This document shows positions 24,672 to 31,877 of a stretch of 64,000 bases of DNA, piece by piece. Below the pieces are notes generated by a model, which did no database searches, was not told where the DNA came from, and saw only the letters and a program-made list of their open reading frames with translations. The DNA is from Candidatus Gemmiger excrementavium (GTDB lineage Bacteria; Bacillota; Clostridia; Oscillospirales; Ruminococcaceae). The DNA lies in assembly GCA_019116485.1 (NCBI GenBank), contig DXBO01000134.1, forward strand, positions 1 to 64,000, written 5' to 3'. The stretch's first letter is position 1, and every line of letters begins with the position of its first letter. The position numbers and the translations under genes are program-made.

Positions 24672-24700
24672 TTGATTTCCTACTATTTTTATAGTAAAAT
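24672..24700 (+). promoter_or_regulatory. Putative promoter of M60-dockerin gene
   Basis: TTGATT-17 nt-TAAAAT. Confidence 0.55.
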
Positions 24701-24823
24701 GCCCGCTGCACCAGGCAAGAAAAAAGTACCGGTTCCCCGCGGGTGCCGGGCGCAAAGCTCTGCGGCAGCGCGTCCAAGCGGGGCGGATATCGTCCACATC
24801 GACAAAAGAAAGGAAGACACGAC

Positions 24824-27800
24824 GTGAAAAAAGCCATCGCCACCTTGCTGAGCTTCTGCATGATGTTCAGCATCCTGGCACAAGGCCCTGTCGCCTATGC
24901 TCAGGAAGCCTTCTCCGCGCATGCGGAACAGGCATATGCGGCAGCCTCCCCCGAAACGGGCGCCATGACGGAGGAAGAAGAAATACCCGATACGCTCTCT
25001 CAGGAGAGCGAGGTGCAGGCGGCAGCCGCCACGGTGGAGACCGCCGCCCCCGTTCTGCTGGATGTCGATACACCGGCCAATATCTCGGCTGTGGAAGTAA
25101 TCCTGCAGGACCCCGAAGAACTGTTTACAGTACAGCTGCTCAGCGCCAGCGGAGAGCGGCTGAACTTTGAAAAGGCCGCGTCCAAAGACGGCCTGATTAC
25201 CCTGCGCGCTGCCAACCTGCCCAACGGCGACTACACCCTGACCGTTACCGGCGAGCGCTTTGCCACCTATACCCAGCACCTGACCCTGCAGGACCGGGTG
25301 TACGCCCTGCAGCTGTACAAGGGGTTCCTGGCCGGGTATACCTATGAGACGGGCAGCGTGCACCCCGGCGTGCTGCGCCTGGGCGATGTGACCGGTGACG
25401 GCATCATCGACCAGCGCGACGCCCAGGCGGTGATCGACGCTTTCGGCACTGCGGCGCCGCAGGCCCGGTATGACCTGAACGGCGACGGCGCGGTGGACCT
25501 GACCGACCTGCAGATCATCGCGGCCAACATCAATGAACCCCGCGAACTGACGGCTGCGGTGTCTACCAGCATCCCGGCGGCGGCTGCTGCTCCCGCCACG
25601 GCGGAGGGCACTACCGCCGAGTTCAAAGATGAGGCTGTAAAGCTCAAAACCGAAACAGCCATCAGCGAGGACAACCCTGCGGTCATCAACTTTGATTTTG
25701 CCGCCCAGGGCGGTGAAAGCGGTGTCGCCATGGAGGCCATCTCCCTTCAGACTCCCACGCAGAGCGAAAACGCGGTGACCGCTGCCACCATCACGGTGGA
25801 ATATGTGGAAGACGGGCAGACCAAGACCAAGGAATTTGCCGTGGAAACGGCGAAAGCCCGTGCCGCCGGTGTGGCGGTAATCCAGCCGGACGGCTCGGTT
25901 GTCATTGACTTCGGCAAGCAGATCGCCGTCAAAAAGGTCAGCATCAAGGTCACCGCTACCGCCGACAACACCAACCTGGCCGAGATCACCAAGGTGGAAT
26001 TCCTCAACGATATGGAAAGCCGTATCCCGGCTCCCACCATGGACATTCCCGGAAATCTCCTGGCGGAACCGGCCAACCGTTCCTTTACGCTGACCTGGGA
26101 CGCCGCGGTGAACGTTACGGGCTATGAAGTGCTTATCACCCTGGGGGATAAGCAGCAGGCCATGCGCACCACCGTCAATCAGCTCACCGTCACCCGTTTT
26201 GACGGTGAAAAACTGGAAAACGGCACGGAATACACGGTAAAGGTCCAGTCTGTCAACGGCGAGTGGAGCAGCGGCTACGGCGAGGCCGTCAAGGTGGTGC
26301 CCAAGGTGGATGAACTGCCCCCGGCACCCGATGGTCTGCGCCTGACCGGGCGGTTCCAGCGCATCGAAGCCTCCTGGGACAAGATGAAGGACACCGATAC
26401 CTACAACCTTTATTACCGCAAAGCCAATGATACCGGGGCGGAGTTTACCAAGATCGAGGGCATTGCCGCCAACGGCTACACCATCCAGGGGCTGCAGAAC
26501 AACGTGACCTACGAAGTGTACGTCACCGGCGTCAACGACCTGGGCGAAGGTCCGGCATCTCTGACTGCCAAGGCGGCCACCACTGGCATCACGCCTGTCA
26601 AAATGCCGCTGTACAAGCTCATCAACACCCTGGGTGATCCCGGCCAGCCCACGGCCCACATCACCAGCATCATCCATGAAACGGGATACATGAAGGACAG
26701 CCCGCTGGATTCCGGCAACAGCGCCTGGGGTGCGGCGGACAACGACTTTGGTTCCTGGTACGGCCTGAACGACTGGGACGACGGCGCCGCCTACCCTGAC
26801 AACGGCGGCATCCGCGTGACCTTTGACCAGGCCTACCATATCGGCAGCATCTCGCTGACCCAGGCCGAGGAGCGCGGTTACTACGGCAAGGTCCGTGTGT
26901 ATGCCCGCAACGACGGCGGGGAATACCTGGTGCCCGGCGTCAGCATAGTCAAGCATGCCGACGAGAACGGCCATGGCTATTACACCATCAAGATCCCCGG
27001 CGGTGTGACCACCGATTATCTGCGGGTGTGTGTGGGCTACCTGTACTGGAACAGCCCGGTCTCCATTGCGGAGATGCGCTTCTACCGCTATGACAGCCTG
27101 GAGGACGATATTCTGGCGCTGTATGCCGACGATTTGCATCTCGCACTGCGGGAAGGTGTGAACGAGCAGACCATTGCGGACCTGCAGACCCGCCTGGATA
27201 CCCCCGACGAGGCCAGCGGCCAGCTGCACCCTGACCGGGTGAACCTGCAGCGGGAACTGGACAACGCCCGCGGCCTGCTGGATGCAAACCTGCAGACTGC
27301 CGTACAGATCCACACCGGCATCACCGCCCAGAAGGACGGTCACCTGGGCTTTACCGGCCTGAACGCCTGGCAGCCCCTGGGTGTGACCGCCTATGCCAAC
27401 GAGGAACTGGTCCTCTATGTGGGCGGCAACTCCGGCGCTACCGGCGCCAATGCTTCGCTGCAGCTCATCTTCTCTCAGTACAATGCCGAGTACGGGCAGG
27501 TGGTCTCCAAAGCGTATCCCCTCCAGATCGGCCGCAATGAGGTCCTGGTCCCCGACCTGGTCAGCTTTGACGCCGAACACGGCGGTGCCCTGTATGTGCA
27601 GTACACCGGCAACAACGCCGCCGATCAGTATTCCGTCCGCGTCAGCGGCGGTACGGCCATCCCGGTGCTGGACCTGTACGGTATCGACGATGCCGGCGAG
27701 CGCCTGGCCCGTGTGACCGCCTATGTGCAGCAGCTGGAGGCCCGCGCCGCGGAGCTGGAAACCCTGCACAACGAACTGCACAGCAGTTCCGGCCTGAGCG

Positions 27801-29995
27801 CGGTGGACCACGCCTACAACCCCGAGGAGTGCATCTTCAACACCACGGATATCCTGTTGGACCAGATGATGCTTTCGGTGCCCGCCACCCAGGTGCTGGC
27901 CGGTCTGGACAGCGGTTCCACCGCCGATAAAGCGGCCAGACTGCTCAATTCCATGGACGCCATGGACCAGATGATGGTGCTGTTCTACCAGCACAAGGGC
28001 CTGACCAACCTGGAAGGTGCGGGTGACCGCAACCGTCTGCCTGCCCAGCACCTGAACATCCGCTACATGCGCATGTTCGCCGGGGCTTTCATGTACGCTG
28101 CGGGCAACCACATCGGCATCGGCTGGGATTCTGTACTCGGCCTGGCCCAGGGCAACCCTGTGGTGCTGAACGAAGCGGGCAACTATCTCAGCGGTGAATA
28201 TTTCGGCTGGGGCATTGCCCACGAGATCGGCCACAACATCAACCAGGGCAGCTATGCCGTGGCGGAAGTCACCAACAACTACTTCTCCCAGATTTCCCAG
28301 GCCAGAGAGGGCGTACGTTTTGGCTATGACGCCATCTACCGCAAGGTTACCAGCGGTGCCCTGGGCGCGGCGGACGATGTGTTCACCCAGCTGGGCATGT
28401 ACTGGCAGCTGCACCTGGCCTATGACCGCGGTTACGAATACCAGATTTATGACAGCTATGGTCAGCTGTTCGAAAGCCGCTTCTTTGCCCGTGTGGACAC
28501 CTACGCCCGCACGCCTTCCGCGGCGCCTGCGCCGGGCGGCCTGCAGCTGAGCCTGGGCGGCGACGCCAACCAGAACCTGATGCGCCTGGCCAGTGCCGCG
28601 GCCCAGCGGGACCTGACGGAATTCTTTGGCCGCTGGGGTCTGGTGCCCGACACCACCACGGCTGCCTATATGGCGCAGTTTGAGCCGGAGACCCGGGCTA
28701 TCTACTATACCAACGACGCCGCCCGCGATTATGCCTTTACCCACGGCGACGCCGCCAGCTTTGCCGGTCAGGCCGTGCTCACCGGCGGCACCACCGCTGT
28801 GGTGGACGGCAAGACCCCCAACCAGGTCAACCTGACGCTGGCGGCTGACGCCGACAGCGAGCTGGTCCTGGGGTACGAGATCAGCCGCATCACCTGGCAG
28901 AACGGCAAAGCCACCACCCAGGTCGTGGGCTTTACCACCAACAATACCTATACCGATACCATCACCACCGTCAACAACCGTACCGTGGCCTACCAGGTCA
29001 CGGCGGTGGACAAGTTCCTGAACCGCTCCCAGAGCATGACCCTGCCGGCGGTCAAGATCAGCCATGACGGCAGTTACGAAAAATCCCTGTGGACTGTGAC
29101 CACCAACATGGTGTCGGATCAGGATACCACCCACGAGGCCGTTGAAAAGGACCCCTGCGCTCCGCAGCCGGTCTCGGCCATCAGCCGCATCATCGACAAC
29201 AACAAGAATACCACCTACACCGGCAGGGCGACTTCCGGCAAGGCCACCATTACGGTGGACTTCCACAAAACGCTGGCCGCCACCGGTTTCAAGTACACTG
29301 TGACCGAAGGCACGCCCATCCAGAGATATGAGGTGCAGATCAGCACCGACGGCACCTGGAAGACGCTGGCCACCGGTACCTTTACCGGGGACGAGGTCAA
29401 CACCGTCTACTTCCGCAACGAGAACAACGACCCCTGGGTCTGCACCTATGATGCGGACCAGCTGCGCCTCATCGTCACGGCGCCCACCGGCACCGATATT
29501 TCCATCAGCGAACTGGATGTGCTGGGCCCCACCGGCGACAATGTGGAACTGCTGGCGGACGGTATCGGCACCCTGCAAGATGCTTATACCTTTGATGCCG
29601 ACGCCGGAGAGGCGGGGGTGATCCCCGCGGGCTCCCTGCTCTTCACGGGCAGCTACAAGGGCAACCCGGCCTACAACGTGGTGCTGCTCTACGACCAGAA
29701 CGGCAGTATCGTGGGCGGCGTGGATGCCGAGGGCAACCTGGTGGCCCACCAGATCATTCTGGCCGAAGTGCCTGAACAGGGGGAACTGGGTGAAGTCAGC
29801 GAGGGCAGCTGGGTCTACTGGATCGAACCCGATGCCCTGGAAGGGATGAAACTGCCTGAGACGGTGTGTGCCGAGATTTACCGTGTGGACAATGCCACCA
29901 CCAACGAGGGCCAGCGCCTGACCGGCGATACCCTGCCGGTGACGCTGCCCGGTGAACTGCCCAACATCACCCTGACCGGCGATTCCGCCCATTGA
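24824..29995 (+). CDS. Secreted M60-like (enhancin-type) metallopeptidase with signal peptide, internal type-I dockerin, FN3 and F5/8C-like modules (1723 aa)
   Basis: MKKAIATLLSFCMMFSILAQGPVAYAQ signal; dockerin duplicate loops GDVTGDGIIDQRD...YDLNGDGAVDLTD; two FN3-like repeats; GWGIAHEIGHNINQGSYAVAE (HExxH...E gluzincin, M60 context); GTG start with GAAAGGAAG. Confidence 0.88.
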   Translation: MKKAIATLLSFCMMFSILAQGPVAYAQEAFSAHAEQAYAAASPETGAMTEEEEIPDTLSQESEVQAAAATVETAAPVLLDVDTPANISAVEVILQDPEELFTVQLLSASGERLNFEKAASKDGLITLRAANLPNGDYTLTVTGERFATYTQHLTLQDRVYALQLYKGFLAGYTYETGSVHPGVLRLGDVTGDGIIDQRDAQAVIDAFGTAAPQARYDLNGDGAVDLTDLQIIAANINEPRELTAAVSTSIPAAAAAPATAEGTTAEFKDEAVKLKTETAISEDNPAVINFDFAAQGGESGVAMEAISLQTPTQSENAVTAATITVEYVEDGQTKTKEFAVETAKARAAGVAVIQPDGSVVIDFGKQIAVKKVSIKVTATADNTNLAEITKVEFLNDMESRIPAPTMDIPGNLLAEPANRSFTLTWDAAVNVTGYEVLITLGDKQQAMRTTVNQLTVTRFDGEKLENGTEYTVKVQSVNGEWSSGYGEAVKVVPKVDELPPAPDGLRLTGRFQRIEASWDKMKDTDTYNLYYRKANDTGAEFTKIEGIAANGYTIQGLQNNVTYEVYVTGVNDLGEGPASLTAKAATTGITPVKMPLYKLINTLGDPGQPTAHITSIIHETGYMKDSPLDSGNSAWGAADNDFGSWYGLNDWDDGAAYPDNGGIRVTFDQAYHIGSISLTQAEERGYYGKVRVYARNDGGEYLVPGVSIVKHADENGHGYYTIKIPGGVTTDYLRVCVGYLYWNSPVSIAEMRFYRYDSLEDDILALYADDLHLALREGVNEQTIADLQTRLDTPDEASGQLHPDRVNLQRELDNARGLLDANLQTAVQIHTGITAQKDGHLGFTGLNAWQPLGVTAYANEELVLYVGGNSGATGANASLQLIFSQYNAEYGQVVSKAYPLQIGRNEVLVPDLVSFDAEHGGALYVQYTGNNAADQYSVRVSGGTAIPVLDLYGIDDAGERLARVTAYVQQLEARAAELETLHNELHSSSGLSAVDHAYNPEECIFNTTDILLDQMMLSVPATQVLAGLDSGSTADKAARLLNSMDAMDQMMVLFYQHKGLTNLEGAGDRNRLPAQHLNIRYMRMFAGAFMYAAGNHIGIGWDSVLGLAQGNPVVLNEAGNYLSGEYFGWGIAHEIGHNINQGSYAVAEVTNNYFSQISQAREGVRFGYDAIYRKVTSGALGAADDVFTQLGMYWQLHLAYDRGYEYQIYDSYGQLFESRFFARVDTYARTPSAAPAPGGLQLSLGGDANQNLMRLASAAAQRDLTEFFGRWGLVPDTTTAAYMAQFEPETRAIYYTNDAARDYAFTHGDAASFAGQAVLTGGTTAVVDGKTPNQVNLTLAADADSELVLGYEISRITWQNGKATTQVVGFTTNNTYTDTITTVNNRTVAYQVTAVDKFLNRSQSMTLPAVKISHDGSYEKSLWTVTTNMVSDQDTTHEAVEKDPCAPQPVSAISRIIDNNKNTTYTGRATSGKATITVDFHKTLAATGFKYTVTEGTPIQRYEVQISTDGTWKTLATGTFTGDEVNTVYFRNENNDPWVCTYDADQLRLIVTAPTGTDISISELDVLGPTGDNVELLADGIGTLQDAYTFDADAGEAGVIPAGSLLFTGSYKGNPAYNVVLLYDQNGSIVGGVDAEGNLVAHQIILAEVPEQGELGEVSEGSWVYWIEPDALEGMKLPETVCAEIYRVDNATTNEGQRLTGDTLPVTLPGELPNITLTGDSAH

Positions 29996-30013
29996 CAGAC
30001 AAGGAGACCTACC

Positions 30014-30931
30014 ATGAAAAAACAACTGGCCACCCTGCTGCTGGCCGCTGCCCTGACGCTGTGGGCTCTGCCCGCGTCGGCCCAGGCCGCCCGGGAGGGC
30101 GTACAGCTGGAGACCAGCGGCGGCAGTACGGTTGTCACGCTGACACTGCCCCAGGAAACGGTGCAACAGGGCGTTACCTCGCTGCAGCTGAGCTTTGACG
30201 TACAGGGCGGCGATGTGAAGTTCGACTTTGCGGATACCCTGCCCGCAACGGTAAAAGAATACCGCTGCAACGACAATACGCTGACGCTTTATCTTTCCGG
30301 CCGTGACACACTGCTGGACAGCGGCACCGAAAGTGTACGCCTGGGTGAGATCAGCGTTGCCAAAGCCACCCAGAACGAGGTCACCGTCACCTTTGACCCG
30401 GACTCCCTGCAGCTGCTCAACGCGGCCAACGGTACGGTGGTGGCCGATGCCCTGCCCGAGACCCTGGCGGTGATGCCCGCAAACGGGGCACCGGACAACG
30501 ACCAGGACGGGGACCAGAGTGGAAATCAGGGCAGTACCGGCGGCAGCCAGAACGGCGGCACGGGTACGGCCCCGACAGAGACCCGGAAACCGGAATCCCC
30601 GGTGGAGCCCACCGCAACGCCGGTGCCGGATGCAGCCGCCACCCTGATCAGCCCGGTGGGCGGTACAACCCATACCCCTGCCGCTACCCGCAAACCTGCC
30701 GCGGCCTCCCAGGCCGACGGTGAGGTCCCGGTCCCCGGCACCATCCCTGCCCCCAGCGCTCAGCCGGAAACCACAACCGCGCCGCAGGCAACGCCGGAAA
30801 CGGCGCCTGCCACAGCGGAAAGCGCTGCCCAACAGAATGGCGAGGGCGGGCTGCCTATCCTGCCCATTGCGGCAGGGGTGGTGGTCCTGGCAATCATCGC
30901 CGTGGTGGTGATCCGCCGCCTCTTCTTCTGA
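30014..30931 (+). CDS. Secreted membrane-anchored protein: signal peptide, cohesin/CBM-like beta domain (tentative), Thr/Pro/Ala linker, C-terminal TM
   Basis: MKKQLATLLLAAALTLWALPASAQA signal; beta-rich VTSLQLSFDVQGGDVKFDFAD... region; PTETRKPESPVEPTATPVP linker; LPILPIAAGVVVLAIIAVVVIRRLFF TM; 18 bp after the M60 gene. Confidence 0.75.
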   Translation: MKKQLATLLLAAALTLWALPASAQAAREGVQLETSGGSTVVTLTLPQETVQQGVTSLQLSFDVQGGDVKFDFADTLPATVKEYRCNDNTLTLYLSGRDTLLDSGTESVRLGEISVAKATQNEVTVTFDPDSLQLLNAANGTVVADALPETLAVMPANGAPDNDQDGDQSGNQGSTGGSQNGGTGTAPTETRKPESPVEPTATPVPDAAATLISPVGGTTHTPAATRKPAAASQADGEVPVPGTIPAPSAQPETTTAPQATPETAPATAESAAQQNGEGGLPILPIAAGVVVLAIIAVVVIRRLFF

Positions 30932-30985
30932 TCCCCAACCCCAAAAGCGGGCGGTAAAAGGCCGCCCGGCAAGCAAAATGTAAAG

Positions 30986-31024
30986 CAGGCGCCTGCATCT
31001 TACGATGCAGGCGCCTGTCTTTTT
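30986..31024 (+). terminator. Strong intrinsic terminator of M60/anchor operon
   Basis: caggcgcctgcatc-ttac-gatgcaggcgcctg + tcttttt. Confidence 0.88.
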
Positions 31025-31031
31025 GTGTGGT

Positions 31032-31877
31032 TCAGCCCGGGGTGTCCAGCCCGTAGTCCCGCAGGCAGCGGCGAATCCCCTCCGCCGTGGTGTCAAACAC
31101 TACGCCGCCCCGGCGGGCTTTGGCGCAGTCCATGGCCAGGCTGCGCTGCCGGTCTCCCGGTTCCAGGGCGGGGCTGATATGCAATGCCGTGCAGAAAGCC
31201 CGGGCCGTTTCGTACATGGTCAGCGTGTTTTCACTGCCGAAGTTATATACGCCCCCCGGCAGCTCCAGGGCGGGCAGCAGGTTTTCCACCGCCTGGCGCA
31301 CATAGGTCACGCCCCGGTATTCCCGGCGGGAAAACACGGCGGTTTTGCCCTGCAGCGCGGCTTGCAGCAGGTTCAGCGGCAGGTTCCCCCGGACAGGCAG
31401 CCCGTACCCCGGTAAATCGTACAGCCAGGTGGCCCGCAGATGCACGCTGTCCGGGCAAAGGGCCAGCGCCCGCTCCTCGGCCTCCCGCTTGTGGCGGCCA
31501 TAGACGTTGGCGGGGTGCAGGGGCGTGTCCTCCCCAAAGGGGCCGTCCCCCGGCAGGCCGGCATAGACCTGGTCGGAACTGAAGCTGACCAGCTTGGCGC
31601 CGGTGTGCCGGGCGGCGTCCGCCAGCCACACCGGAAGTTCCACGTTGGCCCGGTAGGATTCCTGGGGGTGGGCTTCGCTGTAGCCGGTGTCTGAAATGGC
31701 TGCCGTGTGCAGGATGACCTCGGGCCGGGCCCGGGCCAACAGTTCTTCTATCTCCTGTGGGCCGGCGGTGCGCAGCAGGCCGGGGGCCACAGGCAGCAGG
31801 GTCAGCCGGTCTGCCAGCTGCTGCAATACGCGGGCGCCTACAAAACCGCCCGCCCCGGTAAGCAGTACTCGTTTCAT
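31032..31877 (-). CDS. NAD(P)-dependent sugar nucleotide epimerase/reductase (RmlD/SDR extended family)
   Basis: MKRVLLTGAGGFVGARVLQQLA; HTAAISDTGYSEAHP; VSFSSDQVYAG; NVYGRHKREAE (YxxxK). Confidence 0.87.
   Translation of the reverse strand: MKRVLLTGAGGFVGARVLQQLADRLTLLPVAPGLLRTAGPQEIEELLARARPEVILHTAAISDTGYSEAHPQESYRANVELPVWLADAARHTGAKLVSFSSDQVYAGLPGDGPFGEDTPLHPANVYGRHKREAEERALALCPDSVHLRATWLYDLPGYGLPVRGNLPLNLLQAALQGKTAVFSRREYRGVTYVRQAVENLLPALELPGGVYNFGSENTLTMYETARAFCTALHISPALEPGDRQRSLAMDCAKARRGGVVFDTTAEGIRRCLRDYGLDTPG

Follow-up and report, generated by a model that had tools for sequence, protein, structure and literature searches.

A dockerin-bearing M60 metallopeptidase and an adjacent cohesin-like membrane protein as a predicted one-enzyme surface display unit in Gemmiger

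The genome of Candidatus Gemmiger excrementavium encodes a large secreted M60 metallopeptidase which carries a dockerin and has no evident anchor of its own, and this raises the question of how such a protein may be held on the cell surface. The survey of the M60-like/PF13402 family, to which the peptidase belongs (Nakjang 2012, PMC3267712), recorded a dockerin in 2 of 415 proteins, gave no known anchor for members from Clostridium and Bacillus ('?-anchor') and did not mention cohesins. The locus lies in a window of 64,000 nucleotides, which is the whole stretch of DNA analysed in the present study, and consists of two adjacent genes, designated here gene 1 and gene 2, with the following features:

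24824..29995, + strand: gene 1, 1723 aa, modular M60 metallopeptidase, secreted, carrying an X-module and a dockerin (ORF, Pfam, PDB homologues)
24824..24901, + strand: gene 1 signal peptide, approximate (sequence; hydrophobic windows only at residues 1 and 5)
25094..25363, + strand: X-module-like β domain, residues ~91–180 of gene 1 (AlphaFold 2 pLDDT 89; Foldseek similarity to type II X-dockerins)
25379..25534, + strand: dockerin, residues 186–237 of gene 1, calcium loops at 25385–25420 and 25472–25507 (Pfam PF00404, loops conserved)
26048..26608, + strand: two FN3 domains of gene 1, approximate (Pfam, PDB homologues)
28100..28639, + strand: Peptidase M60 domain, residues 1093–1272 of gene 1 (Pfam PF13402; PDB homologues, Zmp glycopeptidase group)
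28220..28267, + strand: zinc-site motif HEIGHNINQGSYAVAE, residues 1133–1148 of gene 1 (sequence; kept in relatives)
29183..29416, + strand: F5/8 type C domain, residues 1454–1531 of gene 1 (Pfam)
30014..30931, + strand: gene 2, membrane-anchored protein with a single cohesin-like domain, 305 aa (ORF, AlphaFold 2, Foldseek, hydropathy)
30014..30082, + strand: gene 2 signal peptide (sequence; hydrophobic window at residue 5)
30083..30481, + strand: cohesin-like domain, residues 24–156 of gene 2, 133 aa (AlphaFold 2 pLDDT 92.3, pTM 0.86; Foldseek)
30482..30856, + strand: Ala/Thr/Pro/Gly-rich linker of gene 2 (composition)
30857..30916, + strand: C-terminal transmembrane (TM) helix of gene 2, followed by RRLFF (KD 3.18)
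30986..31023, no strand assigned: 13-bp perfect hairpin and T-run 3' of gene 2, terminator-like, closing the two-gene unit (read from the sequence)

Gene 1 starts with a GTG codon at 24824 and its stop is at 29995. Pfam searches clearly indicate the modular composition of its product, with matches above the gathering cut-offs to Dockerin_1 (PF00404, E 6e-8, 33.1 versus 22.9 bits) and Peptidase_M60 (PF13402, E 4.5e-12, 46.5 versus 25.8 bits) and above the curated cut-offs to two fn3 domains (E 2e-15) and F5/8C (E 7e-10). The M60 zinc motif HEXGH...E is present as HEIGH, with the glutamate after 10 residues. The closest solved relatives of the M60 domain are F5/8C-M60 proteins and Zmp glycopeptidases (group PDB 7jfs/5kdn/6xsz), and homology to the Zmp O-glycopeptidases of Clostridium perfringens predicts that the domain most likely cuts O-glycosylated (mucin-type) proteins. 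A hydropathy scan of the full protein found no hydrophobic stretch beyond the signal peptide, hence there is no C-terminal TM helix, and a search for a sorting motif in gene 1 found none. Thus, the architecture that the first-pass annotation had read from the letters alone, namely a signal peptide, duplicated dockerin calcium loops, FN3 and F5/8C-like modules, a zinc motif and the lack of a C-terminal anchor, was borne out by the Pfam and hydropathy analyses; the X-module-like domain preceding the dockerin (residues ~91–180) was absent from that annotation. A 2135-aa open frame runs antisense to both genes (24689–31096, − strand), and long antisense-type frames likewise overlap the gene pair in loci L050, L053, L055 and L061 of relatives; these frames are probably a codon-usage artefact of GC-rich genes.

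The N-terminal part of gene 1 contains the duplicated calcium loop–helix arrangement with D/N/S ligands, the exception being T at position 3 of loop 1; the loops are DVTGDGIIDQRD at residue 188 and DLNGDGAVDLTD at residue 217, and the AlphaFold 2 model of the dockerin shows two helices. Among 71 relatives, at least three of the four calcium positions 1, 3, 5 and 12 are occupied by D, N or S in 69 sequences for loop 1 and in 67 for loop 2; five relatives (L089, L109, L111, L121 and L123) have one degenerate calcium loop and keep the partner gene. AlphaFold 2 modelling of residues ~90–247 (the X-module plus dockerin, X-Doc; pLDDT 89.3) predicted a β domain followed by two loop–helix units, and a Foldseek search with this model returned type II X-module-dockerins, or constructs containing them, as all of its matches 1–10 in the PDB. 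Gene 1 therefore has the layout of a type II X-module-dockerin, with a β X-module directly before the dockerin and the same joint fold. Type II X-module-dockerins are the modules that attach clostridial scaffoldins to cohesins on the cell surface.

Gene 2 begins with an ATG 18 bp past the stop of gene 1, an AAGGAG ribosome-binding site lying between them, and, judging by the hairpin with the T-run located 3' of gene 2, both genes appear to belong to a single transcription unit. The predicted protein comprises a signal peptide, a β domain, a linker (residues 157–278; A/T/P/G fractions 0.17/0.16/0.15/0.12) and one C-terminal TM helix with the maximum KD value of 3.18 at residue 282 and the short tail RRLFF. 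The spacing of 18 bp, the signal peptide, the Thr/Pro/Ala linker and the TM helix had all been noticed before and hold on inspection of sequence, composition and KD values; the β-rich region that had been put at about 110 aa does exist, but is about 130 aa long. On its own, gene 2 gave no usable match in searches of Pfam, NCBIfam and the PDB (the last with phmmer and with a profile), so the fold was needed; gene 2 has no Pfam match above the cut-off and does not reach the gathering cut-off of Cohesin (PF00963). Within the gene 2 family, the Pfam family with the most matches is nevertheless Cohesin (4 of 69 sequences at E < 1, best 5e-5). The AlphaFold 2 model, based on an alignment of 69 sequences, was used for a comparison with cohesin folds that had been set in advance, and 15 of the 20 PDB matches with E < 0.001 in Foldseek were cohesins, including a non-cellulosomal cohesin of Archaeoglobus and cohesins of C. 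perfringens; the TM-scores of about 0.5–0.68 are moderate for a fold common to carbohydrate-binding modules (CBMs) and Ig-like adhesins. In the Foldseek ranking, cohesins of type I and non-cellulosomal cohesins come closer to the domain than those of type II do. Because of the moderate TM-scores and the score below the Pfam cut-off, it is called here cohesin-like and not a member of the Pfam family. Binding of a dockerin by this domain is a prediction. With its signal peptide, cohesin-like fold and C-terminal TM helix, gene 2 has the make-up of a surface-anchoring scaffoldin.

The first-pass annotation had named conserved synteny of the pair as a point to be checked. A gene 1-type M60 protein is encoded in 10 of the 35 genomes of the genus, and gene 2 is found in the same 10; the genes are adjacent and on one strand in all 10 of these pairs and in four further pairs from sister genera. 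When the GTDB species genomes were searched with the C-terminal portion of gene 1, 312 coding stretches were found, the best 80 of which were examined. All 79 testable loci among these best 80 (the remaining one ends at a contig edge and was excluded) have a gene 2 homologue directly downstream and in the same orientation. Among 75 loci extending to the N-terminus, 74 have X-Doc; in the other, L077, gene 1 is broken. Matches confined to the linker (L020 and L022) were disregarded as low-complexity. Linkage of the pair thus holds in all testable loci and in several families, and the dockerin is conserved along with it. Ruminococcaceae, Lachnospiraceae, Amedibacillus dolichus and Eggerthella sinensis are among the sources of these loci, so both genes have probably been passed on together from one lineage to another. 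E. sinensis and A. dolichus (L112 and L123) do not belong to the main clostridial families, and the presence of the pair in them points to horizontal transfer.

A comparison of the partner proteins revealed that the means of attachment varies. Most partners end in a C-terminal TM helix with a basic tail, but sortase signals are present in L182 (NPSTG), L183 (NPGTG) and L185 (LPKTG), SLH domains in L187, L188, L193 and L194, choline-binding repeats in L131 and CWB2 repeats in L186; in a minority (L116, L122, L128, L130, L134, L143 and L189–L192) no recognisable anchor was found. The exchange of anchor types around a constant cohesin-like domain indicates that surface anchoring is the constant job of the partner. 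In L056, L059 and L121, a FIVAR-like helical spacer stands between the cohesin-like domain and the anchor (confirmed by Pfam in L121, recognised by eye in L056 and L059).

The co-occurrence of the partner with X-Doc was assessed in a control sample of 388 genomes drawn evenly from the class, where all M60 proteins matching either PF13402 or a profile of gene 1 were collected. Homology of distant partners is supported by the A2 HMM, or by hhalign to A5 (96%) and of A5 to A4 (98%); for L182 and L183 it is weak (hhalign 19%), and they were assigned chiefly because of their position and layout. A partner accompanies M60 proteins with X-Doc in 14 of 14 judged cases, gene 1 of this genome included (13 separate downstream genes and one fusion, L184), whereas a cohesin-like partner was found nearby in 0 of 16 M60 proteins without X-Doc; this difference is strong, yet it does not amount to 30 independent events, since the X-Doc-positive proteins are one subfamily. 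Two of the proteins without X-Doc (L229 and L232) end in a TM helix of their own. The fusion (L184:3334–9651, + strand) is a single chain of 2106 aa that contains X-Doc, the M60 domain and also the cohesin-like domain, with no evident surface anchor. The module whose evolutionary distances best track those of the cohesin-like domain is X-Doc (partial r 0.376, p 0.001, catalytic-region distances controlled; FN3a is second with 0.310, other modules are lower, and X-Doc leads in 389 of 500 subsamples), although X-Doc sits at the end of gene 1 far from gene 2; this covariation is suggestive only. Residue-level covariation between the two genes (Neff 48) showed no enrichment of the dockerin and was set aside as uninformative.

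It appears highly probable that genes 1 and 2 constitute a dedicated cohesin–dockerin display unit of one enzyme and one anchor, in which a calcium-dependent contact would join the two proteins and O-glycosylated proteins would be the substrate. Domain content, predicted folds, the invariable linkage, the co-occurrence of X-Doc with the partner and the swapping of anchors are the observations on which this reading is built. After export, the gene 2 product would stay in the membrane by means of its C-terminal TM helix, its linker carrying the single cohesin-like domain outward through the wall; the gene 1 product, secreted with no anchor of its own, would be captured at its N-terminal X-module-dockerin by this domain in the manner of type II anchoring, so that the FN3, F5/8C and M60 modules would point away from the cell and the M60 domain would most likely act there on mucin-type proteins. 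The earlier suggestion of a membrane-anchored cohesin-like protein as the holder of a dockerin-bearing protease is thereby strengthened, as a prediction, by the match of X-Doc to type II anchoring dockerins, by the swapped anchors of the partners and by the M60 proteins which lack both X-Doc and a partner. Neither of two contrary outcomes named in the first-pass annotation, a β domain that resembles no cohesin or CBM fold and unlinked genes in related genomes, was observed.

The cohesin fold resembles CBM folds, and weaker Foldseek matches of the gene 2 domain include adhesins such as CNA and Als3, so the domain could instead be a carbohydrate- or mucin-binding module, making gene 2 a small adhesin encoded beside the protease and not holding it. 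Cohesins, however, make up most of the strong matches, and an independent adhesin would not need X-Doc, while the partner accompanies only the M60 proteins that bear it; we regard the adhesin interpretation as improbable. Still less probable is that the domain binds the dockerin mainly to cross-link or staple proteases, comparable to the enzyme–enzyme pairing of C. perfringens. The anchorless fused chain and the partners with no recognisable anchor would agree with such stapling, but most partners have a TM helix and others have sortase, SLH, choline-binding or CWB2 anchors.

It is also conceivable that the gene 1 dockerin docks onto another scaffoldin that escaped recognition and that gene 2 serves a different partner, since cohesins are divergent and can escape Pfam, and the assembly is about 94% complete. 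The assembly (2.53 Mb, 177 contigs, ~94% complete) was, however, found to contain no dockerin other than that of gene 1 and no Pfam cohesin, and the two genes stay together across families, which renders this possibility very remote, the least probable of those considered.

Two loci in other Gemmiger genomes resemble the pair in layout. In L067 (2495–5256, − strand), a transglutaminase-like protein whose C-terminus bears a dockerin-like repeat comes directly after a protein with a signal peptide, cohesin, linker and TM helix; in L063 (4375–7343, − strand), a 677-aa protein with cohesin and dockerin precedes one of 294 aa that has cohesin, List_Bact_rpt and a TM helix. By domain content, both are further Gemmiger dockerin–cohesin pairs with a TM-anchored cohesin. 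When the profile of the gene 2 family was compared with the Pfam-recognised cohesins in these two loci, the probability was only 8%, so descent of gene 2 from them is not shown by sequence. On balance, we favour, with less assurance than the reading of the single locus, the existence in gut bacteria of a widespread and undescribed class of one-enzyme, one-anchor cohesin–X-dockerin units whose cohesins form a family not captured by Pfam; in this class, single enzymes (M60 proteases and, in another Gemmiger genome, a transglutaminase-like protein) would each have a dedicated socket, with the anchor type varying by lineage. Since Pfam misses the cohesin family of gene 2, genome surveys of cohesins undercount such systems. 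Literature searches, with subscription papers and preprints outside their reach and priority accordingly not proven, found no published description of an M60 display pair, nor of Gemmiger and a dockerin together.

A display unit of this kind points to a way in which a large subfamily of mucin-type M60 proteases of gut Firmicutes may be held on the cell surface, and extends cohesin–dockerin assembly from multi-enzyme complexes to a unit displaying a single enzyme. The unit occurs in common gut lineages, including Eisenbergiella tayi, A. dolichus and E. sinensis, and whether a mucinase is cell-bound or diffusing should bear on who profits from the degradation of mucin. For the subfamily of gene 1, an anchor supplied by a partner would be an answer to the '?-anchor' of the M60-like/PF13402 family (PMC3267712).

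The nearest known parallel is the type II anchoring of the Clostridium thermocellum cellulosome (2b59, 5m0y, 4u3s), where, as in the gene pair, an X-module followed by a dockerin meets a cohesin on a cell-anchored protein; there a multi-enzyme scaffoldin is attached, whereas the gene pair would attach a single protease, and the gene 2 domain, unlike the C. thermocellum type II cohesin, is nearer to type I and non-cellulosomal cohesins in Foldseek comparisons. The combination characteristic of a cellulosome or mucinolysome, a multi-cohesin scaffoldin plus several dockerin enzymes, was not found in the assembly, with its one dockerin and no Pfam cohesin. The mucinolysome of Limousia, also a gut bacterium, includes dockerin-bearing peptidases and GHs and the LPxTG-anchored cohesin scaffoldin cSca5 (PMC12997984); it is a multi-enzyme system with five scaffoldins and tandem cohesins, whereas gene 2 has one cohesin-like domain, and the main text of that paper does not mention M60, Gemmiger or Lachnospiraceae. 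The cohesin–dockerin (X82) enzymes of C. perfringens, as summarised in PMC12997984, have single cohesins and dockerins outside cellulosomes, similar to the gene pair; according to the same summary, the cohesin there resides on a GH enzyme and gives enzyme–enzyme pairs, whereas in the gene pair the cohesin-like domain resides on a dedicated membrane anchor.
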